DNA of 64,000 bases, taken from NCBI GenBank assembly GCA_946807835.1, contig OX327686.1, positions 14,260,001-14,324,000 on the forward strand, written 5' to 3'. Source of the stretch: Ailanthus altissimus. Lineage: Eukaryota; Streptophyta; Magnoliopsida; Sapindales; Simaroubaceae. This document shows positions 6,045 through 63,756 of the stretch, in pieces; position 1 is the first letter of the stretch; each line of letters opens with the position of its first letter. Both the position numbers and the translations under genes were made by a program. The notes beneath the pieces are model-generated. The model had not been told where the DNA came from. It did not search any database and saw only the letters and a list, made by a program, of their open reading frames with translations.

Positions 6045-6049
6045 AGGAT
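6045..6049. repeat. Target-site duplication AGGAT (left)
   Basis: AGGAT directly precedes the TGTCACGCC LTR start and is repeated at 15323-15327, directly after the right LTR. A perfect 5 bp duplication at exact LTR ends shows an intact insertion. Confidence 0.93.
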
Positions 6050-8766: not shown

Positions 8767-8780
8767 ATTCTCCCCTCCTT
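8767..8780 (-). other. Polypurine tract of the LOG-carrying element
   Basis: On the minus strand it reads AAGGAGGGGAGAAT, directly followed by the LTR start TGTAGTAACC. It is preceded by TTCGAGGACGAAATTC, the common 3' end of Tekay/Del chromoviruses. It fixes the element as minus strand. Confidence 0.88.
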
Positions 8781-9723: not shown

Positions 9724-10917
9724 ATGAATCCCATTATCATAACTCCTCCTGTTCCTTTTTCTCCACCACAATTTTCAGACCTAATCAAAACCAGAACACT
9801 CCATTCCCGTGCCAAAGAATTCATCAGACACTACGCCATCTTAGCAGTCCAAGAACACGGCCTCACGGTTCTTGGTGGCCCTTTGTTCAACTTAGAATAC
9901 CCTTTCTTTCACCTGCACTCTTTTTTCCCATTTTCCCAATGGTCCAAACCAGTCCTTTACTTGTTATGGTACCTGTTGGATCTGTATACAATCGCCATGG
10001 AATTCCCATTACTTAGAACTCTCCAAAAATTAGAAAAATGTGATGAAGATCATCCAGCCCTGATATTTCTCCAATGGTTTTACCCAAAGACATGGTGGAT
10101 AACTAAATTTCAATACATGATTGCAAACAACACAAATGCTGCAATCCCCAGACAACATCTTTGGTCTGTCTTACTTCTCCAACGAAAGGGTATGATTGTT
10201 TCAGATCATGAAATCCATTATTACCCCACTGTCAAGGATTACCTCACTTTTACCCTTTCACTAAAGGGATCAATTAAGCTCTGGCCTGAAGAAGTAATTC
10301 AGCAAAAGAGAGAACTTGAAAGAATTCTTGCTCAGGAAAATCAAATAATTCCTCCGTCTGTTTGGATCTCCCCAGAAGATGCTGCACCTTGGGAACAAGT
10401 TGAAGCTGACTTTACAGAAGACCTGAATTTTGCCAATATACTCAAATTCCAACAAAGACAAAAATATCATCTTTCACATCTCAGAAATACAGATTACTCT
10501 ACTCATCATCACCATATCCCAAACATGACTTATTATGCCAGGTACAGACAAGCAATGGATAACCTTCACCAATGGCCTCAGCTAACTGTCCCGACAGAAC
10601 CTACCCAATCTCAGCCAGTTGTCCCGACAGAACCTACTCAATCTCAGCCAGCTGTCCCGACAGAACTTGACCAACACCAACCCAATCTTGACTTATCCCT
10701 CTTTCAAGACTCCCAACCTTATCCAACCGACACCCAAATCCAAGAGGAAGCCAGCACATCCCTCATCCAGACCAGCTCACCTGGAGAAGATCAAGATATG
10801 GTAGACCCACATTCCACTCCGCCAGAGCCCTCATTCAATGTATGGGAACAACAACTTCATAAGTTCCTCTCTCACGGATACGACACAGATGAAAGCGACC
10901 AAGGAGACTCATTTTGA
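9724..10917 (+). CDS. Unidentified 397-aa protein, retrotransposon cargo
   Basis: Intact ATG-to-stop ORF in the interior of the element, antisense to the element RNA. I do not recognise a family. The N-terminal two thirds look folded: a proline-rich start, an aromatic/hydrophobic region with a 16-residue hydrophobic run (about 77-92, VLYLLWYLLDLYTIAM), several Trp-rich stretches and a His cluster (STHHHH, about 260). Around residues 288-322 there is a short tandem repeat (VPTEPTQSQP, about 2.5 copies). The C-terminal 75 residues are acidic and Ser/Thr/Pro-rich, ending DESDQGDSF, and are probably disordered. It has its own TATA box (70 bp upstream) and an AATAAA 172 bp after the stop. The long undamaged frame in a recent insertion suggests it is under selection or newly copied. 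It could be a gag- or capsid-like accessory ORF such as the antisense 'aORFs' described in Tat-lineage elements, or a captured host gene. Neither is shown. Confidence 0.8.
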   Translation: MNPIIITPPVPFSPPQFSDLIKTRTLHSRAKEFIRHYAILAVQEHGLTVLGGPLFNLEYPFFHLHSFFPFSQWSKPVLYLLWYLLDLYTIAMEFPLLRTLQKLEKCDEDHPALIFLQWFYPKTWWITKFQYMIANNTNAAIPRQHLWSVLLLQRKGMIVSDHEIHYYPTVKDYLTFTLSLKGSIKLWPEEVIQQKRELERILAQENQIIPPSVWISPEDAAPWEQVEADFTEDLNFANILKFQQRQKYHLSHLRNTDYSTHHHHIPNMTYYARYRQAMDNLHQWPQLTVPTEPTQSQPVVPTEPTQSQPAVPTELDQHQPNLDLSLFQDSQPYPTDTQIQEEASTSLIQTSSPGEDQDMVDPHSTPPEPSFNVWEQQLHKFLSHGYDTDESDQGDSF

Positions 10918-11448: not shown

Positions 11449-11456
11449 TATAAATA
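11449..11456 (+). promoter_or_regulatory. TATA box of the LOG gene
   Basis: TCTATAAATACA, 68 bp upstream of the ATG at 11517. The matching copy in element G (60127-60134) has the same TATAAATACA core and a similar distance, so the promoter appears to have travelled with the gene. Confidence 0.75.
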
Positions 11457-11516
11457 CATTATTATTGCATCCTTATACAAACTCAAAAATATTCAAAGAT
11501 TAGGGTGAGCATAACA

Positions 11517-12170
11517 ATGGAGGAAACCTCAGCTCGTCGATTCACAAACATTTGTGTCTTTTGTGGATCCAACCCTGGGAATACTGAAGAGTTTACAAAA
11601 GTTGCAGAAAATCTTGGTAAGGTATTAGCTGAGCGAAATATACATTTAGTATATGGAGGAGGTAACCGAGGGTTAATGGGGTCTGTGGCAAAAGCTGCAC
11701 ACAATAAAGGTAGTCGAGTTTTGGGTATCATTCCAAAACCTCTAGCTATTGAAAATGTTGTAGGAAAAACAATTGGGGATGAGTTACAAGTCTCATCTAT
11801 GCACGAGCGAATGGCTCAAATGCTTAGGCATGCAGATGCTTTCATAGCTCTACCAGGAGGTTTCGGGACCTTGGAGGAAATTTTTCAAATTGTCTCATGG
11901 GCACAATTACAAATCCACCAAAAACCCATTGGTTTGTTAAATGTTAATGGCTTTTACGACGGGTTGATATCTTTTCTTGACTATGCAGCGGGAACACAAT
12001 TCATCCCACTTCTAGCACGACGGATTCTTATTTCAGCTCCAACTGTTGATCAACTAATTGATCAATTACAGTCTTTTATTCCTCTGTCTAATCCAACATT
12101 GCATCAGTTAGATTGGTCTACTCATGACAGTCAGAAGAAGCGCAAAATAGACTTAAATCTCACTCCGTAG
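11517..12170 (+). CDS. LOG-like: LOG: cytokinin riboside 5'-monophosphate phosphoribohydrolase, transposon-borne
   Basis: 217-aa protein of the LOG/lysine-decarboxylase-like family, which releases active free-base cytokinin from the nucleoside 5'-monophosphate in one step; plant LOGs are cytosolic/nuclear. Visible: the Rossmann-type start NICVFCGSNPG (11-21), nucleotide-binding YGGGNRGLMG (46-55), SSMHERM (93-99) and the signature PGGFGTLEE (113-121); the Arg of HER and the last Glu of PGGxGTxxE are the catalytic residues of the family. Start chosen at ATG 11517, since upstream GTG 11505 is not a eukaryotic start and MEET matches the copy at 60187. Length fits the family (about 210-225). Plant LOG genes normally have several introns; this one has none, so it is a retrocopy. 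Odd points: HERK is HERM, and the tail reads KKRKIDLNL instead of the usual plant LOG ending. It has its own TATA box and AATAAA and is antisense to the carrier element. All key residues are present, so it may be active. Confidence 0.95.
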   Translation: MEETSARRFTNICVFCGSNPGNTEEFTKVAENLGKVLAERNIHLVYGGGNRGLMGSVAKAAHNKGSRVLGIIPKPLAIENVVGKTIGDELQVSSMHERMAQMLRHADAFIALPGGFGTLEEIFQIVSWAQLQIHQKPIGLLNVNGFYDGLISFLDYAAGTQFIPLLARRILISAPTVDQLIDQLQSFIPLSNPTLHQLDWSTHDSQKKRKIDLNLTP

Positions 12171-12216
12171 CCTCTACTGTATTTTTGTTGCTGCTATTGT
12201 TGTTGTTTTCCTTTTC

Positions 12217-12222
12217 AATAAA
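12217..12222 (+). terminator. Polyadenylation signal of the LOG gene
   Basis: AATAAA in CAATAAAAG, about 47 bp past the LOG stop codon. Confidence 0.6.
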
Positions 12223-12585
12223 AGTTGTTTCAATTGATGTCTTCAATACTCTATTTCTCTACATTTTGTCATTGAGAAAATTATCTCAATTTGCTCTACG
12301 ACATGCAAATTATCATTATAAGATATTCAACATCATTCTTACTAAGCATATTAGTCATAACTTAAAAAAAATCTAAATGGTAACATTAGATCCACAAGGT
12401 ACCATTATCCATAACAACAACAATCTTAGCAGCTCTTGGATAATGTGTCAACTTCACAAAATCATACAAAATTTAAGGAATATGTCAAACTTTTACACAA
12501 CAAAGCTACAAATACAATCCTAAGGATTTGGCATCTGCTCGGTTCCCTTGACTCGACACTTAAAAGTCTACAGAATCATATCTTA
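12223..12585. other. Element leader region (minus-strand 5' UTR), no gene
   Basis: On the minus strand this is the segment just after the primer-binding site. The string CGAGTCAAGGGAACCGAG (read from the minus strand) is typical of chromovirus leaders. No ORF of interest. Confidence 0.55.
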
Positions 12586-12597
12586 GCTCTGATACCA
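12586..12597 (-). other. Primer-binding site, initiator tRNA-Met type
   Basis: Minus strand reads TGGTATCAGAGC, the standard plant LTR-element primer site, 8 nt inside the 5' LTR (12606). It proves that the element reads leftwards, so both cargo ORFs are antisense. Confidence 0.93.
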
Positions 12598-12605
12598 ATA
12601 AAAGC

Positions 12606-15322
12606 TGTCACGCCCCAGACCCAAAAGATCTGACACACGACATCACTTACATTCATTCAATAATACTTAAGCATTTATTTTAATTTCTTTCAGAATTATA
12701 GCAATTGAATTATGACTGGGACAATTAGTAAACCGGAGATACGCAGAGTTTTCTCAGAGATTAACACTCTACTACGTCACCAGTAGCAACTTTGTTACCG
12801 GAAGCCCAGAATATATTCATTGCAAATTCTTACTTAAAATCAATCCATTACTACACTTGGTGAAACTTAAACTAAATCCAACCACACAATAAAATAATAC
12901 ATAGGTATTTATTCACTAGGGACAAATCAAATATCTTATCCCACGTGTCCCCAAATAAAACACTTAGCAACCTAACAACTTAGGGAACCCAAGGAACAGC
13001 AGAAGCCTTGCCAAATCCGCTATGCACACATGTACCTTATTTACCTGAAATCACCATAAACTATAATGAGTATAAAACTCAGTAAGCATACTAATTTTTC
13101 ATATATCAAATACAAATACATATATGTACACAATGCATATGTATGATATGCTGTGATCAATCAAAATCATAATCTTATCAAATCACATATCATGTAAGCG
13201 CTTACACATTCTTTCAAAACACATAATAGGAATACCATTACTCGACTACTACTTAGTAGGACTTACATATCACATATCACATAATGAGCCAAATGTCACT
13301 CGTAGGTGACATACCGTATGAGAGGAATAGTACAAGTGAGGTCTTTAAATCACACATATATAACGCTTATGCCCGAAGGTAAAAGCCAAACCCTCACCCT
13401 GATCATCGGTGAGTCCTCTCACATGTACCAATACGCCACCACACGAATGTGATGACTCACACTTCCTTTAGGTACCAATAGGATCCTCCCTACATACGGA
13501 ACACATAACATATACCAATCCCGAAGGAAAGGCCACACATAAAGGCTCCACAAATCACATAAAATGCCTACTAAGTTAACAGTGAGTTCAAGTACCCTCA
13601 AATCACAAAATATTTCTCATGGACATATTACACTTCAAAAGCTTTCTTTGTTAAACGCATCTTATTTTGGAAAGCTCAATTTCAAAAACACATGTATGTC
13701 CATGCTCAATGTCAATGCTCACATTCATAAACATATATTCACATTTCATATCAAAATATACTTTGACATTTCATAAACATATTCTTAACCCCATTTACAA
13801 AATCATACAAAACAATTATTATGTTTATTGTGATTCCAGTAGTAAGTCTAGTATACTTACCTCTTAACACTTTCAGCTACAAGGCTTAAATCTCCTTAAC
13901 CTATCAATGGAGATTAATCCTTTCATAAGCCTCAGAATTCACACAAAATACTTTAAATAGCTTACAAAATTATACACAATGCATTTATCACATCAAATTG
14001 GTCTAAATACTTGGTTTCTCAAAACCTATCATTTTGACCACTTACACTTAACAAAATTTTCTAATACATCAAATGATGTTCAATTACTCCGAAATCAGAA
14101 TATATCATTCTTGACTCATATATACTTCTTATATATGAATATTATATCAAAATTCCTATACAATCCATTCCATACACACCATCAAATCCAAACTACAAAC
14201 CTGACAGGATCAAGATACTTACTGAACAGTATTCAATCTCCCAATTTTATAAAATCATATACTAACTCAAAAATTATACAACTACCACATAATTACTCTT
14301 AATACATATCTAAGTCCATGATAAATATTTCTCTTCCAAATCACTGCCAAAAATATTTTAAAACTATTTTATTCCATAACTTTAAAAATCTGTTAATCAA
14401 CTACTACAATGAGCTGATACACTTTAGAAATTCATAACACTTCAACCACATTGATCCAAATTCTCAATTCCGAGTATATCATATTAGACATATAAAATTA
14501 TCATATTCCACAAATTCATAATTTTTAAAGATCATTCAGCAGGTAAAAAATTATTTTCCACTGTATCATACTGTTTACACAGGAAATTTCCAGAATTCCA
14601 GGGTCATTTTGGTAAATTCACTACAAATTCAATTTCCGAGATTTTCAGTCGATTCAAAGTCTCAGATGATCCTAAACATGTCTAATTTCATATACTCAAA
14701 ATTCAAAACCAGAATCGAATCACAAAAATTTATAAAATTCCTAGATCAAGAGGTTATCCAGCAGAAATTTCATAATTCATCATGATTTATCAAACTATCT
14801 TATAGATCATCATCAATTCTCACAACATCAAACGAAATACACATCAAATCCTTAATTATACATATTTCCAGAAATCAAAACTTAAAGAAATTAACTTAAT
14901 TAATACCAATAAATTGATAATTAGTTGTGATATACCTCTAAAGATCCAAAATTCCAATTTCTTCTTCTTTTTCTTCTTCTTCTTCTCTTTCTCTCTCCTT
15001 TATTTCTCTCTTCTCTCTCTAAAAATGGGTAGCTCGACAAAAATGAGAGAATTAGGGTTTTTAAAAGTGTATTTTTATACTAAGTGGTTAATTTTTGGTA
15101 TTTACGAATTCACCCCCAAAACTTTCAAAGTATAACAATTTGGTCCCTAAAATAATTCCAAAGTCTTGCAAATAAACCCAATACTAATAGTATATCCTTA
15201 ACCTATAAAAACACTACTAATAACAATATATAAATCAAGGATCACCCACATACAAATAAAATACGTATATTTATATATATAAATATACATATTCTTACCG
15301 GTTATGGATATTGGTTACTACA
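12606..15322 (-). repeat. 5' LTR (element orientation) of the LOG-carrying element
   Basis: 2717 bp, same length as 6050-8766 and almost identical. A TATA-like TATAAAAAT (minus strand, 15071-15079) followed by a GA-rich stretch (14963-15020) is a plausible promoter and leader start for the genomic RNA, which would run antisense through LOG. Confidence 0.95.
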
Positions 15323-15327
15323 AGGAT
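15323..15327. repeat. Target-site duplication AGGAT (right)
   Basis: Directly follows the CA end of the right LTR and pairs with 6045-6049. Confidence 0.93.
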
Positions 15328-38322: not shown

Positions 38323-39074
38323 CAATGTACCTATAATTCTTCTATATAATGTTTGATCAAAAAATAACTCGTTTGTATCAGTAGTTAACTTATGACCATT
38401 TACTATAGGGGTATCACAACCTTTGCAGCCACTTATCTTAGCCCTTTAAAATAAGTCTTCTATGTATTTTGTCTGAAATAAATACAAACCATTTGATGTA
38501 GGCTTCACTTCAATACCAAGAAAGTAGTTAAACTAGCCTAGATCTTTCAAGGCAAAAGTGGAACTTAGGAACTGAATAAATTGCTTTAATAAAGAGCTAT
38601 CATGACCTGTTAATAGAATTTCATTAACATAAACAAGAACTAAGATGAGTTTATGTGAGACATTCTTAATAAACAGTGAAGTATCAGATTTACTATTAAT
38701 GAATCCTTAGAAAAAAAAAAAGCTACTTTCAATTTCTCATACCATGCTCTTAGGGCCTGCTTTAAACCATATAAGACCTTGTTAAGCTTACTCACATAAG
38801 ATAATTTTTCTAAGTCAAGAAACCTTATTAGTTGCCTCGTATAAATTACCTCAGACAAGGTGTCATTGAGGAAGGCATTATTAACATCATTTTGTCTTAT
38901 AGTCCAATAATGCATTACTGTTAAGCTGAGAATTACTCTAACAGTAAATGGTTTTATTACAGGACTAAATGTATCAAAATAGTCTATACCTAGTGTCTGC
39001 AAGAATCCCTTTGCAAAAAACCTTGCCTTGTGCTTAGCAATTGTACCATCTAGATGATATTTTGGTTTAAACAC
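38323..39074 (-). pseudogene. Copia C: reverse transcriptase remnant
   Basis: Minus strand. Open 38640-39074 carries DGTIAKHKARFFAKGF, GIDYFDTFSPV and DVNNAFLNDTLSEVIY, the N-terminal half of copia RT. The catalytic YVDD position (about 38610-38635) reads YVNE, so both catalytic Asp are lost, besides stops and frameshifts. Dead enzyme. Confidence 0.9.
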
Positions 39075-40900
39075 CTATTTACTATCTATAATCTTGAATG
39101 TTTTCGATTATGGTATAAGACACCAAGTGTTATTCCTCACGAGTGTAGAATATTCTTTCTGCATTGCTACTTTTCACTTAGGATTTTTTAAAGCTTCAAC
39201 AATTGTCATTGGCTCAGAATCTTGAGTGCTTGTTTGACACTAGTATACCTTTGGCTTTCTTATTCCAGATTTAGACCCAATTCTCATAGGTGTCTTGAGG
39301 AATATGTATCAGGTTGTGATAAATGTAATTGTGGGTTATCAGTGATTTCCTTACATTGTGGTGCAGGTTGGTAAATATGGTTATAAGTGTTAGAATATGG
39401 TAATTCTGCTTGTGGCATATGAGATAGAGTTTGGTACTTGTTTGAAGTTGAGATGGACAGGTTCTAATATGAGGATGAGTAAAATGTTTTGTCGATGTAT
39501 CAAATGCTGCTGTGGTTGATTTTATATTCTCAAAGGTAAGCATAGGTGAATATTCAAACAAAGAATGACTTTCTGAACATGAAGAAGACTTAGACAAGAA
39601 AATTTCATGATAAAGAAAATTAGACTCATTAAAACTAACATGTCTAGCAATAGAGATTCTGCCACTAGGATGCATGGACTTATACCATTTATGGCTTGTA
39701 CTGTATCCCAAGAACAAAAAACTTTTGTGTATGAAAATTTAACTTGTTTGATTGATAAGGTCTAAGATAAGGGAAACAAGCACATCCAAAGGTTTTTACA
39801 AAGGAATTATTTTGTTTTTGACAAAATGACATTTCAAATGGTGATTTGTTATTAAGAACTATTGTTGGCATTCTGTTTATTAGATAAGATATTGTACTAA
39901 AAGCATCCCACCAGAAGGATAAAGGCATAGAGGCTTGGACAAGTAGTGTTAAACCTGTTTCAACTAAATGTCTATGCTTCCTTTTTATGACTTATTTTTT
40001 ATGGTGTGTATGAAGGCAAGGATATCTAAATTGATTCTTTCTTGATTTAAGAACTGTGAAAAAGACCTGAATTCTCCTCCTCAATCATTTTGAAAAGTTT
40101 TGATGGACCTATCAAGTTGTTTTTCAACAATGACTTTATAGCTTTTAAAGATGCCAAAAGCTTCTGACTTAGTTCTCATATGGTACAACCAATTATATCT
40201 AATATGGTCATCAACAAAACTTAGATAATATTTATATCATTTTTCTGTGTGAATGGAAAATGGTCCCTAAACATCTACATAGACAAGTTCTAAAGGAAAC
40301 CTTGTTCTTATACCAGTACAAGCATAATGAAGTATATGCAGATTTCCTAGTTGGCATGCATCACAGAATTCAGTTTTAAGAACTTTATTGTTTGGAAAAC
40401 TCAGATTACAAGAGTTAAAAATAGTCTTGAGTACAGAAAGACTTGGATGTCCAAGTCTTTGATGCCAAAGATTATAATTTGAAACATTCTAGCCTTTAGA
40501 AGACTGTACATAAACATTATATGACATAGGATCCAATGACATTAGATTACATTTGAAAGACACTGAATTAGATGCACATAACTGATTCTTATTTATTTTA
40601 CAAGATGCATTTTTAGAATAGAAGGAAAACATAAAAACAGGATGAGTATCTAACAATATTTTAGCAATAAAAGAACTTGGATCACATGAAGAATCAGGTG
40701 TAAAAACCAGCCTATAAAGCCCCCTCACAGCAACACCTTTGATCAGTAGAATTCCTCTTCTTTTGTCCTTAATGTAACACATGTGAGAGAAAAATTCAAC
40801 AATAACATCATTATCAGTAACTAATTTTGAGATACTAATTAAGTTTTTTGTGATTAAAGGCACATATAGTAAATTTTTTAGAACCAGGCTATTATCAAAA
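39075..40900 (-). pseudogene. Copia C: GAG-pre-integrase and integrase remnant
   Basis: Minus strand. Segments: pre-integrase (40489-40863, ITKNLISISKLVTDN), a broken core (39930-40480), then PLSFWWDAFSTISYLINRMP (39870-39928) and GCACFPYLRPY, and the linker SGRISIARHVSFNESNF (about 39600-39680). The order matches copia integrase. Stops and frameshifts separate the pieces. Confidence 0.88.
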
Positions 40901-51355: not shown

Positions 51356-51360
51356 CTGGT
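51356..51360. repeat. TSD CTGGT (left) of element G
   Basis: Repeated at 63752-63756, exactly at the right LTR end. Confidence 0.95.
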
Positions 51361-52919
51361 TGATGAACACATGAAAATGCATGTTGTTAAGAGATTCAAT
51401 CACCATTTAATGTCACTAATTTTAGTGTTTTCTGTATTTTTAGCTTGAAATAAAGTGTTCTCCTTAAATTGTGATTAATGAATGTTATTTGGACAGATTT
51501 AGGTAAACTGGACATAACTCTCAATGTAGAAATCGAAATGAAGAAATTCTTGAACCTGGTGCAACATGACTCAATCTTACACAAATTTGAAGAATAGTGG
51601 AAAAGCCAAATCTAATATGTTATGGGCCAAAAATTGAGATACAACAGAATCGGACTACAACTCTTACCAAGCTTGACCCAATTCATGTATTTGGACCGTA
51701 TCTCGCAAAATACGTATTCAATTGGTATAATTCTTGAAGCTGTGAATTGCTGACTTAACTATCAACAACTCGTATGTTTATGATAAAGTCCAAATCAGCC
51801 GTTATCATGGACCAAATCGCATTGCAAGTGGGTAAAATGGTTGTTGGCCAAATTCTGATGTATCTTTGGAATTTTGCTCATATCTCATTGGATACTCATC
51901 CAATTTGCATGAAATCAGTGCCTATGGAAAGAAGAGTCCAAATGCTACAACTTTCATGTCGGCTGCAGAAGCTGAATTGATCATTTACATTATCAAAAAC
52001 GTGCTGCAAATGGATACACAAGTTATTGGCTTAAAACTATTGAAGATTGATGTCATCCATGACATATGTCCATTCATTGCCTATATAAGGAGACACTTAG
52101 GACGTTTTTAACAATAGAAAAATTTCTCTCTTCTTTTATTCTCATTAACATGTATTGTAATTTAGGCTAGAGTTCCTAGCAAGGCTAAGAGATGAACTTT
52201 TATGTGTAGTAAATCTACTTCCATGCTTTGATTCGGTGTCAAGAGCTATAAATGTTGTAAGTTTGGTTTTGATTAAACTCTTATCTATTTTATTTTCTAT
52301 AATCCAGAGGTTATAATTCTCATGTCTCATATATGTTCAATCATACTTTTCTTATGTGATTCATGTTGATTTATAATTGTTACTGGTTATATTGTTTTAT
52401 ATGTTAATCTTTTACTGCAGTATTGTCAATTTGATATATTGTCGATCTTGGATAACATGTAAGGGCAATAAATGTTTGATATTCAAGTTAATCTTTTACT
52501 GCAATATTGTCAAAATGATATATTGTCGATCTTAGATAACTTGTATAAATAACATGATGTGTGTTAATGCTTGCAAAGAGTTTAACTAAATCAAATACAT
52601 GTGTTATCAAATGTGCTATATATTACATACCTTCCGATTGATTGTTTGGAATGTGAAACTTTCAGTTGAGTTATAAATATCGAATCAAAGTATAGAGTAG
52701 ATTTATAAAGCATAATTGTGATTCTCAAAGCCTTGCTTAAATCATCATAAGACATTTTCCTCAATTCATAGACAATTCTATCTCATCCGTTTAAATCAAT
52801 TAACCCTTTGCTACTGCTTTAATATTTTACTTCACTAACCTATTTTTCCAAGAGCTTCCTCGTGGGATCAACACCTCAATTTATACTGCGATAGCCGCGT
52901 TATATTTTGAGCGTAAACA
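51361..52919 (+). repeat. 5' LTR of element G
   Basis: 1559 bp, TGATGAACACATG...GAGCGTAAACA. A TATA box (TATATAAGG, 52083-52091) lies in its centre. The matching ORF-like frames in both LTRs are not genes. Confidence 0.96.
52083..52091 (+). promoter_or_regulatory. TATA box in the 5' LTR of element G
   Basis: CCTATATAAGGAGAC; also present in the 3' LTR at about 62915. Likely promoter of the genomic RNA. Confidence 0.7.
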
Positions 52920-52925
52920 AAAATT

Positions 52926-52943
52926 TGGCGCCGTTGCCAGGGA
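52926..52943 (+). other. Primer-binding site, tRNA-Asp type
   Basis: TGGCGCCGTTGCCAGGGA, six bases after the LTR end; one base off the TGGCGCCGTTGCCGGGGA form of Athila/Tat elements. Confidence 0.92.
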
Positions 52944-53785
52944 AGCACACTAAGCGAAAGTCGGTTGCGATTATAAATACTAAAGTGGTAACTTTGTATA
53001 TTTTCTTTTCTTTGTAAACTCTTAGTTTATTTCCTTTGTTGTAATTTATTTATTATTCATGGTTGGTTCTACCACCTAATTTATTTTGTTTTCTTTAGTT
53101 AATTTGTTATATTTTATATTATCTTAATGGCTGGTTTTGCCGCCTAATTAGTTTATTTTCTTTTATCTATTTATTGCACTTTTTTTTAATGGCTGGTTTT
53201 ACCGCCTAACTTTGTTCACTTTCTTTTATTTATTTATTGTACTTTATTTCTTTAGTTAATTTATTGTATTTTCTTTTTATTTTGTGGTTGGTTTTACCGC
53301 CTAACTTAGTTTCTTTATTTCGTATTGTACTCTATTTATTTATTGCACTTTTTTTTATTGTACTTTATTTTCATTTTCTTTTACGAATTTATTGCAATTT
53401 ATTTTCTTTAGTTAATATGTTGTATTTTCTTTTTATGGCCGATTCTACCGCCTAACCTTTTATTTATTTACTTATTGTATTTTCTTTTTATTATTTAATT
53501 ATTGTACTTTTTCGTATTTTATAGTCTTTTGTTTAGTTATTGTATTTATATTTCATGGTTGGTCTTACCACCTAACTTATTTCTATTTCTTGTTGTGTTT
53601 ATTCCACTTCTTAATTTTCCTTAAGCATTTCTTTCCTAAAAAAAAAAAAAAAATTAGGATGTATGCATCGACCTAGAGACAAACGAGGAAGATTTGTGAG
53701 AGAACTAGAACTAGAACTAGAACCACTCCCACAATTTGTAAGTGAAGAGAATTAACCTTCTAGTTCATCTTGTAATTCTAACACA
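52944..53785 (+). repeat. Leader of element G with six dispersed GGTTTTACCGCCTAA-type repeats
   Basis: T-rich 5' UTR. The motif (A)TGGYTGGTTYTACCGCCTAA recurs about six times (near 53060, 53127, 53191, 53284, 53436, 53555), separated by T-rich filler of 50-150 bases. A run of A (about 53639-53653) precedes a 30-codon frame (53663-53755, MHRPRDKRGRFVREL...) that ends in TAA and is in phase with gag. Confidence 0.8.
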
Positions 53786-55366
53786 ATGAGCCAACACGAA
53801 GAAAATCCCGTTAGAACTCTAAAAGATTACTTGCATCCTACTCGCACAGCCACACCATCATGCATTATATTTCCACCTAACATACCACATTCGGATTTTA
53901 AACCTAGAATGATACAACTTCTTCCCACTTTTCATGGTCTAGATAGTGAAAATCCTTATGTACATGTTAGGGAATTTGAAGAGGTAATTGCCACCTTCCA
54001 TAGCCAACCTGAAGCCATAGACACTGTTAGGCTTAAAATTTTCCCTTTTTCTTTGAAAGACAAAGCAAAGAGTTGGCTATACTCTTTGAGGCCGAGGTCT
54101 ATAGGAACTTGGGCAGAAATGACCCAAGCATTTTTCAATAAATACTTCCCACAACACAAAACTAATGGCCTGAAAAAACAAATTTCTTCATTCTCCCAAA
54201 AAGACAGTGAAACCTTATATCAAGCATGGGAAAGGTTTAAAGAGTTGCTAAATCTGTGCCCTCACCATGGGTATGAAAATTGGCGCTTGGTTAGTTATTT
54301 CTATGAGGGACTCACAATTAGAGAGCGCCAATTTGTTGAGATGATGTGTAATGGGGAGTTCCTTCACAAAGATCCTGAGGAAGCCATAGAATTCCTTAAT
54401 GACTTAGCCAAAAAAGCCCATACATGGACTGGACCTAGCATTGCTGAAAGCACAAATAGGTCACGACCCAATAGAGTTTTCCATCTTAGGGAAGAGGATA
54501 ACCTCAAAGCCCAATTAGACGTCTTAACTAGGGAGTTAGAGGCCTTGAAATCCAAAGATAGAAGGGTCACCCACACGGTTGCTAGAGTTGAGTCACACGA
54601 TGTCTGTTTTGTCTGTGGAGGAGCGGAACACTTAGCTCAGGATTGCCCCACGTATAGTGAGATGAGAGGGATATATGAGGAACAATGTAATGCCCTAGGG
54701 ATGTACAAGAAGCCTTATTCACCCTACTCTGAAACATATAATCCTAGCTGGAGAAACCACCCAAATTTCAGTTGGAAATCTGACCAACAAGCCAACAACC
54801 AATGGAAACAAGAACAACAAGCACCCAAGTCTTATGTTGCACCTCAATATAATGCACGACCAACTAGGAGTTCTTTAGAGGATACATTACAAGCATTTAT
54901 GGAGGCACAAAGTAAGACTAATCAAAAATTTGAAACAATTCTTGCACAGGTGGTGGACGAAAACAAAGAAATCAAGAGTCAAATCACAAAATTGACTAGT
55001 GCCTTAACTGTACAAGAGCGAGGTAAGTTTCCATCTCAACCTCAATCCAATCCAAAAGGACAATTCATGGCACAAGCTTCTACTTCTGATGTTCAAAATC
55101 TCAAAGAAGTCAATGCCATTACTACTCGAAGTGGTAAGATTGTAAGTGACCCTACTCCTGAAATTAACACATCTATGAGTAGTAAAGATGCCCCCCTTGA
55201 AAAAGAGGCCACAATGGAAAAAGAGCCCGAAAGTAAGTTTTCAATCCCAGTGCCTTTTCCTCAAGCTCTTCGACCGGTTGGGAAAAATTCAAAAATTCAA
55301 GGTGAGATTTTGGAACATTTGAAACAAGTTAAAATTAATCTTCCCTTGTTACATTTGATTAAGTAG
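53786..55366 (+). CDS. gag: Element G gag
   Basis: 526-codon frame from ATG 53786. Retrotransposon gag domain at about residues 50-180 (LPTFHGLDSENPYVHVREFE, LYQAWERFKELLNLCPHHG), a coiled-coil-prone part (about 235-260), a CCHC zinc knuckle CFVCGGAEHLAQDC (about 274-287), then a Gln/Pro/Ser-rich tail and the Athila-type NAITTRSGK (about 447-455). It forms the virus-like particle and binds the RNA. It ends at TAG 55364-55366, beyond which the same frame continues into protease and pol, so the stop is either a recent CAG-to-TAG change (Gln is expected from relatives) or a site for readthrough. An in-frame 30-codon segment upstream (53663) ends in TAA at 53753 and could be the lost true N terminus. 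Confidence 0.93.
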   Translation: MSQHEENPVRTLKDYLHPTRTATPSCIIFPPNIPHSDFKPRMIQLLPTFHGLDSENPYVHVREFEEVIATFHSQPEAIDTVRLKIFPFSLKDKAKSWLYSLRPRSIGTWAEMTQAFFNKYFPQHKTNGLKKQISSFSQKDSETLYQAWERFKELLNLCPHHGYENWRLVSYFYEGLTIRERQFVEMMCNGEFLHKDPEEAIEFLNDLAKKAHTWTGPSIAESTNRSRPNRVFHLREEDNLKAQLDVLTRELEALKSKDRRVTHTVARVESHDVCFVCGGAEHLAQDCPTYSEMRGIYEEQCNALGMYKKPYSPYSETYNPSWRNHPNFSWKSDQQANNQWKQEQQAPKSYVAPQYNARPTRSSLEDTLQAFMEAQSKTNQKFETILAQVVDENKEIKSQITKLTSALTVQERGKFPSQPQSNPKGQFMAQASTSDVQNLKEVNAITTRSGKIVSDPTPEINTSMSSKDAPLEKEATMEKEPESKFSIPVPFPQALRPVGKNSKIQGEILEHLKQVKINLPLLHLIK

Positions 55367-58300
55367 GTTCCAACTTATGCCAAAGTCATCAAGGATTTAT
55401 GCACTATCAAAAGAAAACACCATGTGAAGAAAACTGCATTTTTGGCAGAACAGGTAAGTGCAGTGATTGAACAAAAGACACCACCCAAGTATAAAGACCC
55501 AGGATGTCCCACAATCTCCTGCCAAATTGGGACACATGAGTTTGGTCAAGCTTTATTGGACTTAGGAGCAAGTGTAAATTTAATGCCTTATTCTATTTAC
55601 TTGCAGTTGGGACTTGGTGAGATTAAACCAACATCTGTAGTCCTACAATTAGCTGACCGATCAATCAAGAAACCACAGGGAATAGTAGAAGATGTTTTGT
55701 TGCAAATTGACAAATTTTACTATCCTGTTGATTTTCTTGTTTTAGATACTCATTCTGTTGTTAACATGGAGTCAAAAATCCCTCTTATTTTGGGGAGACC
55801 TTTTCTAGCCACTGCTAACGCTCTTATTAATTGCAGAAATGGTCTAATGAAATTATCTTTTGGGAATATGACTCTTGAGGTGAACATTTTCAACATTGGC
55901 AAACAACCACGAGAAGAAGACGAGTGCTATCATTCATATATGATAGACACACTTGTAGCGGAGGAAGCTTATAAAAATCATGGCTATGATTCTTCGAAAA
56001 ACCTTCTCAATTTTGATTTTGAAGAATTGTATTATCCTGATGTAACAACTAATGTGTTTAGTATTTTTGACTCACAGGATAAACGGACTCGATTTTGGCA
56101 GACACACTTTGAAGAGTTGCCACGAGAGAGGGAGAGACCAAAACCATCAAACCTCAAGACACCACAAGTTGAGCTTTCTCCACTGCCCAAAGGTTTGAAA
56201 CACCCATTCTTGGGACCAGGTGATACCTTTCCTATCATCATTTCTTCTGAACTTAGTGCTGAACAAGAGAAAAAATTGATAAAATTGTTAAAAGAACATA
56301 AGTCTGCACTAGGTTGGACCATAGCTGATATTAAAGGTATTTCTCCATTGATATGCTCCCATAGAATTCATTTAGAGGAAGGTTCCCAACCTCGTAGAGA
56401 CCCACAAAGAAGACTTAACCCAACAATGAAAGAAGTAGTGAAGAAAGAGGTCTTGAAACTATTAAATGCGAGTATAATCTACCCAATTTCTGATAGTCAA
56501 TGGGTAAGTCCAACTCAAGTAGTTCCTAAGAAATCTGGGGTTACTGTTGTTGAAAATGAGAATGGGATACCTGTTCCAACTAGGGTAGTAAGTGGTTGGA
56601 GAATGTGTATTGATTATAGAAAGTTAAACACAGCCACTAGGAAAGACTATTTTCCATTGCCTTTTATCGACCAAATTTTAGAACGTGTAGCTGGACATCC
56701 TTTTTATTGCTTTCTTGATGGGTATTCAGGGTATTACCAGATTGAGATAGCTATAGAAGATCAAGAAAAAACTACTTTTACATGCCCTTTTGGTACTTAT
56801 GCTTTTCGTAGAATGCAATTTGGATTATGTAATGCACCAGCTACTTTCCAGCGTTGTATGTTGAGTATTTTCTCTGATATGGTTGAAAAATGCATGGAAG
56901 TCTTTATGGATGATTTGACTGTTTTTGGTAATTCTTTTGATTTATGCCTACTTAACTTGAAATCTGTTTTGAGTAGGTGTGAAGAAAAAGGACTTGTGCT
57001 AAATTGGGAGAAATGTCATTTCATGGTATCTTCAGGAATCGTTTTAGGGCACATTGTATCTGAAAGAGGGATAGAGGTTGACAAGGCAAAAATTAAATTA
57101 ATCTCTAAATTACCTACACCTAAAACGGTAAAAGATGTCCGATCCTTTCTTGGACACGCTGGCTTTTACAGAAGGTTTATACAAAATTTTTCTGCCATAT
57201 CTAGACCATTGTGTAACCTTTTGCTAAAAGATGCAGAATTTACATGGACACAAGAGTGTGAGGAGGCATTCCGAACACTCATTGCCAAACTCACCACCGC
57301 TCCTATCATGCAATCACCGGATTGGAACCTCCCATTTGAAATTATGTGTGATGCAAGTAATTATGCTGTAGGAGCAGTTCTTGGGCAACGGATGGAGGGA
57401 AAACCCTTTGTTGTTTATTATGCTAGTAGGACTTTGAATGATGCTCAAATGAATTACACTACTACTGAAAAAGAACTATTAGCTGTTGTTTTTGCCTTAG
57501 ATAAATTTCGTTCTTATTTGATTGGTTCACCTATTGTTATTTTTACTGACCACGCAGCCCTTAAGTACCTTCTTTCTAAGAAGGATGCTAAAGCCCGTTT
57601 AATTAGGTGGATTCTTCTTTTGCAGGAATTTGATATAACCATCAAAGATAAGAAAGGCGTTGAAAATGTTGTTGCTGATCATCTATCCCGCCTTGAGTTC
57701 ACTGACTCTACTGATTTGCCACCCATTCGAGACGATTTTCCAGATGAACATCTTTTTGCTATAAGCCAAATACCTTGGTATGCACATATCGTAAATTATT
57801 TGGTTTGTGGTGAACTTCCATCTGACTGGAGTGCACAAGATAAGCGTAAGTTCTTGGTTGAGGTACGTAACTTTTATTGGGATGATCCATATCTTTTCAA
57901 ATACTGTCCTGACCAAATCATGAGACGTTGCATTCCTGAAAGTGAAGTTTCTAGTATCTTAAATTTTTGCCATAGTGCTGCTTGCGGTGGCCATTTTTCT
58001 ATGAAGAAAACAGCTGTGAAAATTTTACAGTGTGGTCTTTATTGGCCCACTTTGTTCAAAGACACTAATAATTTTTGTCGTTCCTGTCAAAGATGTCAAA
58101 AGTTAGGTGCTTTATCTCGAAGAAATATGATGCCTCTTAACCTTATTCTTGTTATCGAGATATTTGACTGTTGGGGTATTGATTTTATGGGTCCATTTCC
58201 TTCATCTTTTGGCTATCTTTACATCCTTTTAGCTGTTGACTATGTATCAAAATGGGTGGAGGCTGTAGCTTGTCGTACTAATGATAATACAACTGTGGTA

Positions 58301-59074
58301 AAATTCTTAAAAGAAAATGTGTTATCTAGGTACGGTACGCCACGTGTCATCATTAGTGACCAAGGAACACATTTTTGTAATCGTTCTTTTGAAGCTTTAA
58401 TGCGCAGGTATGGTGTTCTTCACAAAGTTTCCACTGCATACCATCCACAGACAAATGGACAAGCCGAGCTAGCAAATAGAGAGGTTAAACAGATTTTGGA
58501 AAAGACGGTTAACCCGAATCGCAAAGATTGGTCTCTACGCCTTTCTGATGCATTATGGGCATATCGTACTGCATACAAAACCATCTTAGGAATGTCCCCA
58601 TACCGGCTTGTTTATGGGAAAGCTTGCCATTTACCTGTTGAGCTAGAACATAAAGCTTATTGGGCTGTCAAAGCCCTTAACTTTGATTTGAATGCTGCAG
58701 GTCTCCAGAGAAAGTTACAATTGTCAGAAATAGAAGAGCTACGAAATGACGCATATGACAACTCTAAAATTTACAAAGCTAAAATGAAAGTAGCTCATGA
58801 TAAACAGATCTCAAGGAAACACTTTGAGCCAAATCAACGGGTCTATCTTTATGATTCTCGATTGCATTTACACCCTGGAAAGTTGAGATCTCGATGGACT
58901 GGTCCATTTATGGTAAGACATGTTTTTCCTAATGGTGCTGTTGAAATAGAAGACCCCACTGATGGACGGACTTTCAAAGTGAATGGACAGCGGCTAAAAA
59001 GCTACGTGGAAAAGGTAAACGACTCTATGTACCTAGGCGAGATCCCTCTTGTGGATCCTGTCTATCGTGATTGA
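55367..59074 (+). CDS. pol: Element G pol: protease, reverse transcriptase, RNase H, integrase
   Basis: Uninterrupted 1235-codon frame in phase with gag. Protease: [12 protein letters not shown] (about 55553-55590; Athila elements use DLGAS). [22 protein letters not shown] (about 56600-56660) and catalytic [10 protein letters not shown] (about 56900-56930). RNase [30 protein letters not shown] and [10 protein letters not shown] (57345-57575), ending VADHLSRL. Integrase: HHCC zinc finger (HSAACGGHF...CRSCQRC, 57970-58105) and the DDE core at GIDFMGPFP (about 58176), IISDQGTHF (about 58350) and [10 protein letters not shown] (about 58455). All catalytic residues are present. It lacks its own ATG, as it is normally translated from gag. 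It makes cDNA and inserts it. Apparently intact apart from the TAG upstream. Confidence 0.95.
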
Positions 59075-59322: not shown

Positions 59323-59871
59323 ATGGATCGCATTCTTGCCAACCTTAAAAAACATTTTCCTTCATTTCCTCAAAATGCTCTATTTAAGATTTACAAAGCA
59401 CGGTGTGAAAGACTAAGGCTATTGATGTTGCGTAATATCCCTGTGGACCTTCGTTGGTTAATTGAAGCCAAGGTTCGGTTGTCTGGTGAGTTTGAAAATG
59501 ATTTTGTTTCTCATATGCCTGGTCTTGGAAGAAGCTCTTATGCCAAAAGGCGACGAGCAAAAAGGTTACAAGTCTGTCATAAATGTGCTCGATGGAATTG
59601 TAATCGGAGTTGTCGTTCTTTAGGATTCGTATCTAGAAATCGAGAAGACAAAATTCAGTTCATTAAGGATGGACTGAGTAAGGAGTCTTTGGATGATATC
59701 CTATTGACTATTGAGACGCATCCTTGTGGCCTCGTGCAACGTGAACTTCTCGATTTATGGAACAAATTCAAAAATGAACATCAACGGTATAGTCTCGGGA
59801 ATCTGACTCTAAAAGACCCTGTTTGCCAATTTATAAGAAAATTGGATGGGAAGCCTATCCCCGACCCATAG
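59323..59871 (+). CDS. Carlavirus/allexivirus NABP-like Cys-cluster protein in element G
   Basis: Intact 182-aa ORF between pol and LOG. Residues 66-97 hold a basic stretch GRSSYAKRRRAK followed by a Cys cluster CHKCARWNCNRSC (C85, C88, C93, C97), close in layout to the arginine-rich motif plus zinc finger of the nucleic-acid-binding proteins of carlaviruses and allexiviruses, which bind RNA and suppress RNA silencing (family knowledge). The N-terminal 60 residues are helical-looking and Leu/Arg-rich; the C-terminal third (from about 110: EDKIQFIKDGLSKESLDDIL) looks folded too. The Cys spacing is tighter than in the viral family. It occupies the place of an env-like gene. Function as an RNA-binding or defence-suppressing factor is inference. 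It could instead be an unrelated zinc-binding accessory ORF. Confidence 0.72.
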   Translation: MDRILANLKKHFPSFPQNALFKIYKARCERLRLLMLRNIPVDLRWLIEAKVRLSGEFENDFVSHMPGLGRSSYAKRRRAKRLQVCHKCARWNCNRSCRSLGFVSRNREDKIQFIKDGLSKESLDDILLTIETHPCGLVQRELLDLWNKFKNEHQRYSLGNLTLKDPVCQFIRKLDGKPIPDP

Positions 59872-60126: not shown

Positions 60127-60134
60127 TATAAATA
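60127..60134 (+). promoter_or_regulatory. TATA box of the element G LOG
   Basis: CTCTATAAATACAG, 60 bp before the ATG at 60187; the same core as at 11449-11456. Confidence 0.72.
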
Positions 60135-60186
60135 CAGCACCTCAGTTTCTTCATTTTCATATATTGAGATAAAGGTGAGAGTAGAT

Positions 60187-60834
60187 ATGGAGGAAACCCA
60201 AGTTCGACAATTTCGAAATATATGTGTATTTTGTGGATCTAGTCCTGGGGAGAGTAAAGTGTTCGTAGAAGCAGCAAACAATCTAGGAAAAACATTAGCT
60301 GTAAGAAAAATTCATTTGATTTATGGAGGAGGTAGCCTTGGGCTAATGGGGTGTGTGTCAACAGCTGCACATTTAGGAGGAAGTTAAGTTTTAGGTATTA
60401 TTCCTACAGCTTTGGCCGTGGGAAACCTGACCGGGAAAACAATATGGGAAGAATTACAAGTCTCATCCATGCATGAACGTATAGCCAGAATGCTTTGCAA
60501 TGCAGACGCTTTTATTGCTTTACCAGGTGGTTTTGGTACCTTGGAAGAAATTTTTCAAATTGTCTCTTGGGCCCAACTGAATATCCACCGAAAACCCATA
60601 GGTTTGTTGAATGTTAATAACTATTTTAATTGCTTACTTTGTTTTCTTGATCAAGCTGTGGAACAGAATTTTATTTCACATTCGGCGCGACAGATCCTGG
60701 TTTCTGCTATTGAGGCGGATGAATTGATTAACAAATTACAAGCAGTTACCTACGAACCTGACCCAGCAATAACTCGGATCGATTGGTCAGTGGGCCTTAA
60801 CAAGCGAAAATTGGATCTGACACTCCGTTTGTAA
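60187..60834 (+). pseudogene. LOG-like: LOG-type cytokinin phosphoribohydrolase gene with one stop (element G)
   Basis: 215-codon, intronless LOG homologue, colinear with the copy at 11517 (about 64% identical over the first 66 residues and about 77% over the next 83, by eye). Visible: NICVFCGSSPG (11-21), YGGGSLGLMG (46-55), SSMHERI (93-99), PGGFGTLEE (113-121) and the tail NKRKLDLTLRL. Codon 67 is TAA (60385-60387), at the place of Arg67 in the other copy, so the product would lack the catalytic half. All later codons remain open, which suggests the stop is young. Start taken at ATG 60187 (MEET, as in the other copy); the in-frame ATG 60118 lies upstream of the TATA box. If the stop were read through or absent in sister copies, the enzyme would convert cytokinin nucleotides to free cytokinins. 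Confidence 0.93.
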
Positions 60835-62176
60835 ATTTTTCTTTTTATTTATTTATTTATCAGTACCATTATTTTAGTTTATATTTGCTTAAGTGTCTCT
60901 CAGGTTTGTTTCTTTCAAATAACTGGCGTTTCAGGTAATGTCTCCTATACTTTATCTCTTTCTATTTAAACATTGAGGACAATGTTTCATCTGGTTTGTG
61001 GGGAGGATAGTAGACATACTTTGCATTTTGCAAAAAAAAAAAAAAAAAAAATTGTGGTCCGACATTTGATTAAAATGGCAGAGTAAAGAGTTCATTCTTG
61101 AACTCTTGAGACGCATTCTAGGTCAAATTAGAATGGCTGAGTAAGGAGTTTTAGTACTAACTTTTGAAATGCATTTTAACTAACTTTTTGTTATTTTGTT
61201 TTATATTTCATGCATTGTCGTTTACTGCTTGTAGTCTTGGTAATTCTTGTATAAAGGAATTTGCTTTTCTGCCTAAGTATGATTTCAGAATTGTTTAGGT
61301 TGAGTCACTATTTCTATCTAGGTTACTAAAGAATGACTTCCAAAATATTTTTGAGCACAATGCTAAGCCTTGTGGTAAGATGGATGATTCAATTTATATA
61401 GCCAACAGAATTCCCATGTTTAAGTATATATTTTTCTAATCTCACATATCTTTTGTGAGTAAGTGGAAAGGTTGAGAAAATAGCTTATGAACTTTCATTG
61501 ATCCTTTGAATTGATTAATTTTTGTTTAGAATGATATTATTTGAATTAAGGGATAAGTTGGTTACATTTGTGCATAATATAATTTGGTGAGAAACCTTTG
61601 TAATGCTTCCTTGTATTCTTAAAAAAAAAAAAAAAAACACAAAAGTACCAAAAACAAGAAGAAAAAAAAAAAGAAGCAATTCAGTTTAATAAAGTCTTCA
61701 TTCAATTTTAGAAGACAAATACCTTGTAAAACAGTTTTCTCACCAAGTTATAATTGTATTATTCTCACAAGCCAATTAAAGTTCTAAAGTTGGCGTATGA
61801 TATGAATAATTGATTTTTAAACAAATAATTTTCCTATCTTCAGATCAATGTTAGTTTATATGTCTGTCCTTAAAATTGACTTTTTCTTGAGTGCTTAACT
61901 GTTTTCCAACTCCATAAGAGAAGTCCTAACCTTTTAAACAGTCATACACCTGTGAGGATATGGAGTTGAGGCTTTTACTTGGAGAAATTCTCAAGGCTAT
62001 ATCTATTGTGGTTTGTGGTTAGATGGTTATGGCTTAGTTCACACACACACAAATTATGGAAGTTGTAATTGAAAAAACCATGATAGCAACAGTGATCTCG
62101 AACTGACGTTTTGATTGAAGTGCTTAGGTAGTTTTGCATATTCTATTTACGCTTGAATTGCTAGAGACTAGCAATA
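60835..62176. other. 3' non-coding region of element G
   Basis: No ORF. It holds the sequence ACATTGAGGACAATGTTTCA (60972-60991), common ahead of the 3' LTR in Athila/Ogre-type elements, and two poly-A runs (61031-61049 and 61621-61637). Confidence 0.6.
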
Positions 62177-62192
62177 AGCTGGTTGGGGATTG
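62177..62192 (+). other. Polypurine tract of element G
   Basis: AGCTGGTTGGGGATTG, directly before the 3' LTR start. Confidence 0.7.
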
Positions 62193-63751
62193 TGATGAAC
62201 ACATGAAAATGCATGTTGTTAAGAGATTCAATCACTATTTAATGTCACTAATTTTAGTGTTTTCTGTATTTTTAGCTTGAAATAAAGTGTTCTCCTTAAA
62301 TTGTGATTAATGAATGTTATTTGGATAGGTTTAGGTAAACTGGACATAACTCTCAATGTAGAAATCGAAATGAAGAAATTCTTGAACCTGGTGCAACATG
62401 ACTCAATCTTACACAAATTTGAAGAATAGTGGAAAAGCCAAATCCAATATGTTATGGGCAAAAAAGTGAGATACAACAGAATCGGACTACAACTCTTACC
62501 CAGCTTGACCCAATTCGCGTATTTGGATCGTATCTCACAAAATACGTATTCAATTGGTATAATTCTTGAAGCTGTGAATTGCTGACTTAACTATCAACAA
62601 CTCGTATGTTTATGATAAAGTCCAAATCAGCCGTTATCATGGACCAAATCGCATTGCAAGTGGGTAAAATGGTTGTTGGCCAAATTCTGATGTATCTTTG
62701 GAATTTTGCTCATATCTCATTGGATACTCATCCAATTTGCATGAAATCAGTGCCTATGGAAAGAAGAGTCAAAATGCTACAACTTTCATGTCGGCTGCAG
62801 AAGCTGAATTGATCATTTACATTATCAAAAACGTGCTGCAAATGGATACACAAGTTATTGGCTTAAAACTATTGAAGATTGATGTCATCCATGACATATG
62901 TCCATTCATTGCCTATATAAGGAGACACTTAGGACGTTTTTAACAATAGAAAAATTTCTCTCTTCTTTTATTCTCATTAACATGTATTGTAATTTAGGCT
63001 AGAGTTCCTAGCAAGGCTAAGAGATGAACTTTTATGTGTAGTAAATCTACTTCCATGCTTTGATTCGGTGTCAAGAGCTATAAATGTTGTAAGTTTGGTT
63101 TTGATTAAACTCTTATCTATTTTATTTTCTATAATCCAGAGGTTATAATTCTCATGTCTCATATATGTTCAGTCATGCTTTTCTTATGTGATTCATGTTG
63201 ATTTATAATTGTTACTGGTTATATTGTTTTATATGTTAATCTTTTACTGCAGTATTGTCAATTTGATATATTGTCGATCTTGGATAACATGTAAGGGCAA
63301 TAAATGTTTGATATTCAAGTTAATCTTTTACTGCAATATTGTCAAAATGATATATTGTCGATCTTAGATAACTTGTATAAATAACATGATGTGTGTTAAT
63401 GCTTGCAAAGAGTTTAACTAAATCAAATACATGTGTTATTAAATGTGCTATATATTACATACCTTCCGATTGATTGTTTGGAATGTGAAACTTTCAGTTG
63501 AGTTATAAATATCGAATCAAAGTATAGAGTAGATTTATAAAGCATAATTGTGATTCTCAAAGCCTTGCTTAAATCATCATAAGACATTTTCCTCAATTCA
63601 TAGACAATTCTATCTCATCCGTTTAAATCAATTAACCATTTGCTACTGCTTTAATATTTTATTTCACTAACCTATTTTGCCAAGAGCTTCCTCGTAGGAT
63701 CGACACCTCAATCTATACTGCGATAGCCGCGTTATATTTTGAGCGTAAACA
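62193..63751 (+). repeat. 3' LTR of element G
   Basis: 1559 bp, colinear with 51361-52919. Confidence 0.96.
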
Positions 63752-63756
63752 CTGGT
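63752..63756. repeat. TSD CTGGT (right) of element G
   Basis: Pairs with 51356-51360. Confidence 0.95.

Follow-up and report, generated by a model that had tools for sequence, protein, structure and literature searches.

Two LOG-like genes, LOG A and LOG B, were found in two different LTR retrotransposons (elements 1 and 2) within the window, which is the whole 64,000-nt stretch of DNA analysed. Compared with two Arabidopsis and nine prokaryotic LOGs, the data give good support to a single capture, after which the gene was transferred or retained. From the sequences we consider it probable that a LOG gene was captured once by a lineage of LTR retrotransposons, was kept there as an accessory gene and came to lie in antisense orientation in a second element. 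The positions of all features are given in Table 1.

Table 1 Features of the two LOG-like genes and of their carrier elements (positions in the window)
Feature	Position	Strand	Remarks
Element 1 target-site duplication AGGAT	6045–6049 and 15323–15327		flanks LTR pair
Element 1 3' LTR	6050–8766	-	99.78% identical to 12606–15322
Element 1 polypurine tract AAGGAGGGGAGAAT	8767–8780	-	beside left LTR
397-aa ORF	9724–10917	+	intact; next to LOG A; antisense within element 1
TATAAATACA	11449–11458	+	68 bp before ATG of LOG A
LOG-like ORF A (LOG A)	11517–12170	+	intact (217 aa); in antisense orientation within element 1
LOG A 3' flank	12203–12276	+	similar to 60906–60977; AATAAA, where LOG B has AATAAC
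Element 1 primer-binding site TGGTATCAGAGC	12586–12597	-	8 bases from LTR; initiator tRNA-Met type
Element 1 5' LTR	12606–15322	-	paired with 6050–8766
Element 2 target-site duplication CTGGT	51356–51360 (left) and 63752–63756 (right)		flanks LTR pair
Element 2 5' LTR	51361–52919	+	98.65% identical to 62193–63751; 21 mismatches in 1559
Element 2 primer-binding site TGGCGCCGTTGCC	52926–52938	+	tRNA-Asp type
Element 2 gag ORF	53786–55366	+	Retrotrans_gag
Element 2 pol ORF	55424–59074	+	RT, RNase H and integrase above cut-off; aspartyl protease below cut-off
182-aa ORF of element 2	59323–59871	+	between pol and LOG B; similarity to Viral_NABP (PF05515) and Carla_C4 (PF01623)
TATAAATACA	60127–60136	+	60 bp before ATG of LOG B
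LOG-like ORF B (LOG B)	60187–60834	+	215 codons and final stop; in-frame stop at codon 67
LOG B 3' flank	60906–60977	+	resembles LOG A 3' flank
Element 2 polypurine-like stretch GGTTGGGGATTG	62181–62192	+	precedes 3' LTR
Element 2 3' LTR	62193–63751	+	paired with 51361–52919

Homology of LOG A and LOG B

An earlier reading of the sequence alone (the sequence-only reading) had placed a second LOG gene at the position of LOG B, colinear with LOG A. The homologue is indeed present and coincides exactly with an ORF on the plus strand. The two proteins share 133 of 215 aligned residues (61.9%) with one 2-residue gap, and both begin with the identical sequence ATGGAGGAAACC. At the DNA level, identity is 72.9% over 543 columns, starting 20 bp before the ATGs. 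LOG B is not an intact gene, however, and due to its single in-frame stop a full-length protein is not expected from the present copy. Similarity of LOG A and LOG B by chance is ruled out by the alignment and the trees.

Both LOG A and the part of LOG B after the stop (60412–60831) belong to the profile families PF03641 (Lysine_decarbox) and TIGR00730. With PF03641, LOG A scored 134.5 bits against a cut-off of 27, and the profile search with the LOG B part yielded 111.4 bits (E 4.5e-32). The TIGR00730 scores were 184 and 103 bits, respectively, with a cut-off of 96.35. Scores for the NF058542 equivalog (cytokinin-activating LOG) were 124.5 bits for LOG A and 57.6 bits for the LOG B part and fall below the required 300 bits; this counts for little, the model having been run on the element LOGs only.

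The homology to plant type-I LOGs (cytokinin riboside 5'-monophosphate phosphoribohydrolases) covers residues 6–201 and 2–200 of LOG A. LOG A matched PDB entries 2a33 (E 7.3e-63) and 1ydh (E 1.2e-55), which carry the PDB name lysine decarboxylase-like and which we take to be AtLOG3 (At2g37210) and At5g11950, respectively. Identity values of LOG A and LOG B to plant LOGs range from 44.7–52.8%. Like the plant proteins, both feature the motifs YGGGxxGLMG and PGGxGTxEE and 27 of 30 invariant positions. They differ from them in lying within LTR elements, in the absence of introns, which plant LOGs have, in the loss of the K of MHxRK and of two glutamates, and in their C-terminal tail.

Carrier elements

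Element 2, the carrier of LOG B, has the LTR pair, target-site duplication, primer-binding site, polypurine tract, gag and pol of an LTR retrotransposon. It is a candidate Athila-like element. With Athila-type elements it shares the tRNA-Asp-type primer site, gag, the pol order RT–RNase H–integrase and an extra coding region between pol and the 3' LTR. In contrast to the Athila type, what this extra region encodes is a LOG together with an NABP-like protein, and nothing envelope-like was detected among the ORFs of at least 120 aa. The gag and pol of element 2 (53786–59074) share one reading frame, interrupted at codon 527 by a single stop that could be either a regulated junction or a lesion. 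Between the primer site and gag (52989–53596) lie diverged repeats with a unit of about 74 bp, five of them at 53022–53471.

The LTRs of element 1 differ by 6 mismatches in 2718 aligned positions, the alignment extending one base past the listed ends. When read on the minus strand, the primer-binding site lies beside the right LTR and the polypurine tract beside the left one. Element 1 is therefore oriented on the minus strand, opposite to both LOG A and the 397-aa ORF. Neither gag nor pol was detected in element 1, although a decayed remnant of them may be present; the minus strand of its interior has only five stop-free stretches of at least 50 codons (52–110 codons). Element 1 resembles the gag/pol-less LARD-like LTR elements in its long near-identical LTRs, target-site duplication, primer-binding site and polypurine tract. 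Antisense extra ORFs also occur in plant Ty3/gypsy elements. Unlike LARD-like elements, element 1 holds an intact LOG with a relative in another element.

The tRNA types are presumed, TGGCGCCGTTGCC being assigned to tRNA-Asp and TGGTATCAGAGC to initiator tRNA-Met. The claimed differences between the two carriers in LTRs, primer sites (tRNA-Asp versus tRNA-Met) and gene content were all found. An Athila-like nature of element 1 is not supported, its primer site being of the tRNA-Met type instead of the tRNA-Asp type of Athila.

Phylogenetic analysis

One copy each of LOG A and LOG B, both from the window, was compared with two plant LOGs (AtLOG3 and AtLOG8 of Arabidopsis) and nine prokaryotic LOGs, a set that holds no LOG of the host. 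A tree of six sequences comprised LOG A, LOG B, AtLOG3, AtLOG8, the Pseudomonas aeruginosa LOG and YvdD. In a tree of 13 sequences, seven further prokaryotic LOGs (L001–L007) were added. LOG A and LOG B cluster together, as would follow from the common source proposed by the sequence-only reading, in a set whose plant members are those of Arabidopsis only. Their clade was found in 99% of 200 bootstraps with six sequences and obtained SH-aLRT/UFBoot values of 98.6/100 with 13 sequences. With the alignment trimmed by 8 leading and 25 trailing columns, the values were 99.2/100.

With six sequences, AU tests of the five topologies that separate LOG A from LOG B yielded 0.0212, 0.0124, 1.5e-8 and, for two of them, values below 1e-60. 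In the SH test, three of six alternative topologies were not rejected (0.20, 0.30 and 0.30). Nesting of LOG A and LOG B together beside AtLOG3 obtained an AU value of 0.0042 with six sequences and of 0.073 with 13, the latter not being a rejection. With 13 sequences, the pairing of LOG A with AtLOG3 and LOG B with AtLOG8 was rejected (AU 1e-10). Placing LOG A or LOG B alone with the plant LOGs yielded AU values of 0.0039 and 0.0031, respectively; the SH values of 0.11 each did not reject these placements.

Shared residues and C-terminal tail

The 11 other LOGs are identical to one another in 30 columns, of which LOG A and LOG B keep the same 27 residues and lose the same three. In both, one E has become N and Q replaces the last E of (E/D)ExxE; the K of MHxRK has become M in LOG A and I in LOG B. 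This K and this last E occur in all 11 other LOGs. We infer that the loss of residues of such constancy argues against a normal host enzyme as the source. PGGxGTxEE is present as PGGFGTLEE in both proteins, including its second E, the residue that differs between PDB entries 5zbj and 5zbk. In the 133 columns in which AtLOG3 and AtLOG8 agree, 24 departures are common to LOG A and LOG B. Fifteen of these states are also absent from the two bacterial LOGs, and nine match the state of at least one of them and may be ancestral. Further departures were observed in LOG A only (14), in LOG B only (8) and in both with different residues (14).

At the C-terminus, KRK is followed by IDLNLTP in LOG A and by LDLTLRL in LOG B, which gives a common tail KRK-(I/L)DLxL. 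This tail was not found near the end of any of the 11 other LOGs as used, one of which has an internal LSLIL. Only five of the 11 are C-terminally complete (L002–L005 and L007); AtLOG3 and AtLOG8 lack the last 10 and 16 residues, respectively, and the P. aeruginosa LOG, YvdD, L006 and L001 are partial. Under the EAR definition (LxLxL or DLNxxP), the C-terminal patterns are IDLNL and DLNLTP in LOG A and LDLTL in LOG B. We take the tail to be a putative nuclear signal with an EAR-type corepressor motif.

Flanking DNA

A related upstream region had been claimed for the two genes. This holds for TATAAATACA at positions -68 and -60 and for the start ATGGAGGAAACC; beyond the TATA block the regions are weakly alike, with 36 of 1000 dinucleotide shuffles scoring as high as the upstream alignment. 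Two further copies of TATAAATACA lie at 18686 (plus strand) and 53541 (minus strand) of the window.

A blastn alignment of the 3' flanks spans 74 columns at 71.6% identity (E 2e-4); it starts 32 bases downstream of the LOG A stop and 71 bases downstream of the LOG B stop. None of 1000 dinucleotide shuffles reached the score of 41 (maximum 33). The blastn list also holds a 22-base match on the reverse strand (E 7e-4), which we take to be AT-rich noise. The blastn value is therefore weak by itself, and it is the shuffles and the colinear placement of the flanks that carry the argument. The shared non-coding DNA on the 3' side points to a transferred unit that extended beyond the coding sequence. 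The LOG B flank lies within the interior of element 2 and reaches CATTGAGGACAATGTTT at about 60971. CATTGAGGACAATGTTT is presumably a motif that recurs close to the 3' end in Athila-like elements, in which case element 1 would have received its cassette from an element of that type.

Divergence and timing

Between LOG A and LOG B, dN is 0.26–0.28 and dS 0.87–1.27 (three methods). Over 214 codons, 27%, 21% and 45% of the first, second and third positions differ, respectively. The excess at third positions is significant (p 1.3e-7), and the first two positions together account for about half of the differences. Divergence within the LTR pairs is 0.2% in element 1 and 1.3% in element 2. Both pairs are thus far younger than the LOG divergence, so that LOG A and LOG B split long before either insertion. 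A single capture would mean that the reading frame was kept for that long inside elements. With separate captures of host paralogues, the same dN and dS values would instead record evolution in the host. The shared losses and the shared flank lead us to favour a frame kept within elements; LOG A is intact and LOG B has one in-frame stop only, though dS is near 1.

Origin of the element LOGs

The favoured course of events would begin with a single capture of an intronless LOG coding sequence by an LTR-retrotransposon lineage, which would have kept it as an accessory gene 3' of pol, equipped with a TATA box and a 3' flank of its own. Later, the same cassette would have come to lie, antisense, inside an unrelated element in which gag and pol are undetected. 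The donor would have been Athila-like and the element without gag and pol the recipient. Selection would have acted while the LOG resided in elements, and its protein would act in the host cell. One origin instead of a chance double capture, as proposed by the sequence-only reading, agrees with the sister position in three trees, the AU tests, the three lost residues, the tail and the 3' flank. It is qualified by the SH value of 0.11 for mild separations. Against a single capture stand the AU value of 0.073 for LOG A and LOG B nested beside AtLOG3 and the SH values of 0.11 and 0.20–0.30 for the milder alternatives, together with the weak upstream similarity, the broken LOG B, the single copy of each gene and the restriction to two plant LOGs.

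In a rival course of events, two captures would have drawn on a single host LOG paralogue, or on a family of processed LOG copies, that already bore the altered residues, the tail and the 3' flank, and both element genes would be passengers by chance. A comparison set without a host LOG and a LOG B that is already broken are compatible with this. We nevertheless consider it unlikely: the changes affect positions invariant in all 11 other LOGs, whose sources include plants and an archaeon; the 3' flank of LOG B is interior to its element; and an intact LOG A and a LOG B with a single stop are found at a dS near 1. LTR elements are known to capture host genes, and LOG A and LOG B might stem from two different host LOGs that are alike merely by the conservation of LOGs. 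The SH value of 0.11 for either gene alone with the plant LOGs is compatible with such an origin, whereas AU values of 1e-10 (LOG A with AtLOG3, LOG B with AtLOG8) and of 0.003–0.004 for the looser forms, the common residue losses and the common flank make it highly improbable.

Horizontal transfer from a prokaryote is suggested by an identity of LOG A to the P. aeruginosa LOG of 46.2%, compared to 48.5% and 44.7% to AtLOG3 and AtLOG8, and by the nine of 24 common departures that match a bacterial state. A search of genome_contigs with six narrow peptide patterns (38 matched stretches) yielded a single locus, at 46% identity, and the best identity was 47.5% among 15 listed of 186 plasmid records. 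An AtLOG3 fragment yielded a best value of 49.4% among 15 listed of 202 plasmid records. Matches were also found in 22 phage records (36.0–42.6% identity among the five listed). For LOG A, the 397-aa ORF and pol, three, one and two pattern-matched stretches, respectively, were found in viral_contigs and none was confirmed; two degenerate DNA patterns had no match there. LOG A, LOG B and the plant LOGs are split from the nine prokaryotic LOGs at 100/100. With this split and no close relative found among the prokaryotic records searched, a prokaryotic origin is judged very unlikely.

Possible function of the element LOGs

The structure of LOG A predicted without an alignment is poor (mean pLDDT 48.2) and therefore unfit for judging the active site. 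In a Foldseek search with this model, the best 10 of 54 matches (E up to 0.001) were LOG or LOG-like chains, with 2a33 in first place. Enzymatic activity is uncertain; we favour a selected, altered LOG as an accessory gene. Being antisense to its LTRs, LOG A would need its own promoter, and the TATA upstream of both genes and the AATAAA 3' of LOG A suggest transcription from one. Most likely, the LOG would raise or alter cytokinin signalling where the element is active. It could be a modified phosphoribohydrolase that raises free cytokinin, for which we see about equal chances either way. Alternatively, the lost invariant charged residues and the tail would suggest a non-enzymatic nuclear regulator.

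Neighbouring ORFs

The 182-aa ORF beside LOG B matched PF05515 (E 1.8e-8) and PF01623 (E 8.9e-6), both above cut-off. It features the run KRRRAKR followed by a cysteine cluster with the spacing CX2CX4CX3C. In both family matches, the basic run and the cysteines, it resembles the nucleic-acid-binding cysteine-rich proteins of carlaviruses. It differs from them in its encoding by a retrotransposon and in the CX2CX4CX3C spacing. In viral_contigs, seven pattern-matched stretches yielded no confirmed relative of this ORF, and no relative at E up to 1 was found in PDB. Carlavirus proteins of this kind are transcription regulators or silencing suppressors. By analogy, the NABP-like ORF and LOG B would be compatible with a host-manipulating module, which we regard as a lead only.

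A wider reading is that plant LTR retrotransposons took over LOG as a host-manipulation gene, with altered conserved residues and a nuclear tail that recruits corepressors, which spread between unrelated element families and in one of them was paired with a zinc-finger regulator of RNA-virus type. We put this forward tentatively, as conceivable but rather doubtful. Host genes captured by plant LTR elements are generally regarded as passengers picked up by accident. If the reading holds, a constrained captured gene with the same altered residues in two unrelated carriers and, in one of these, with a virus-like neighbour would instead point to selected, host-acting genes, and the gene in question would act on a hormone controlling cell division.

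For the 397-aa ORF beside LOG A, no Pfam or NCBIfam match and no PDB relative at E up to 1 was found, and its predicted structure (mean pLDDT 37.8) is too low in confidence for use. CTATAAATAG was observed about 70 bp before its ATG, an arrangement that resembles the upstream regions of the LOGs. Fragments of copia-type pol (RVT_2, Pol_BBD and SH3_retrovirus) were observed at 268–3280 (plus strand) and 38640–39717 (minus strand), indicating that several retroelements are present within the window.
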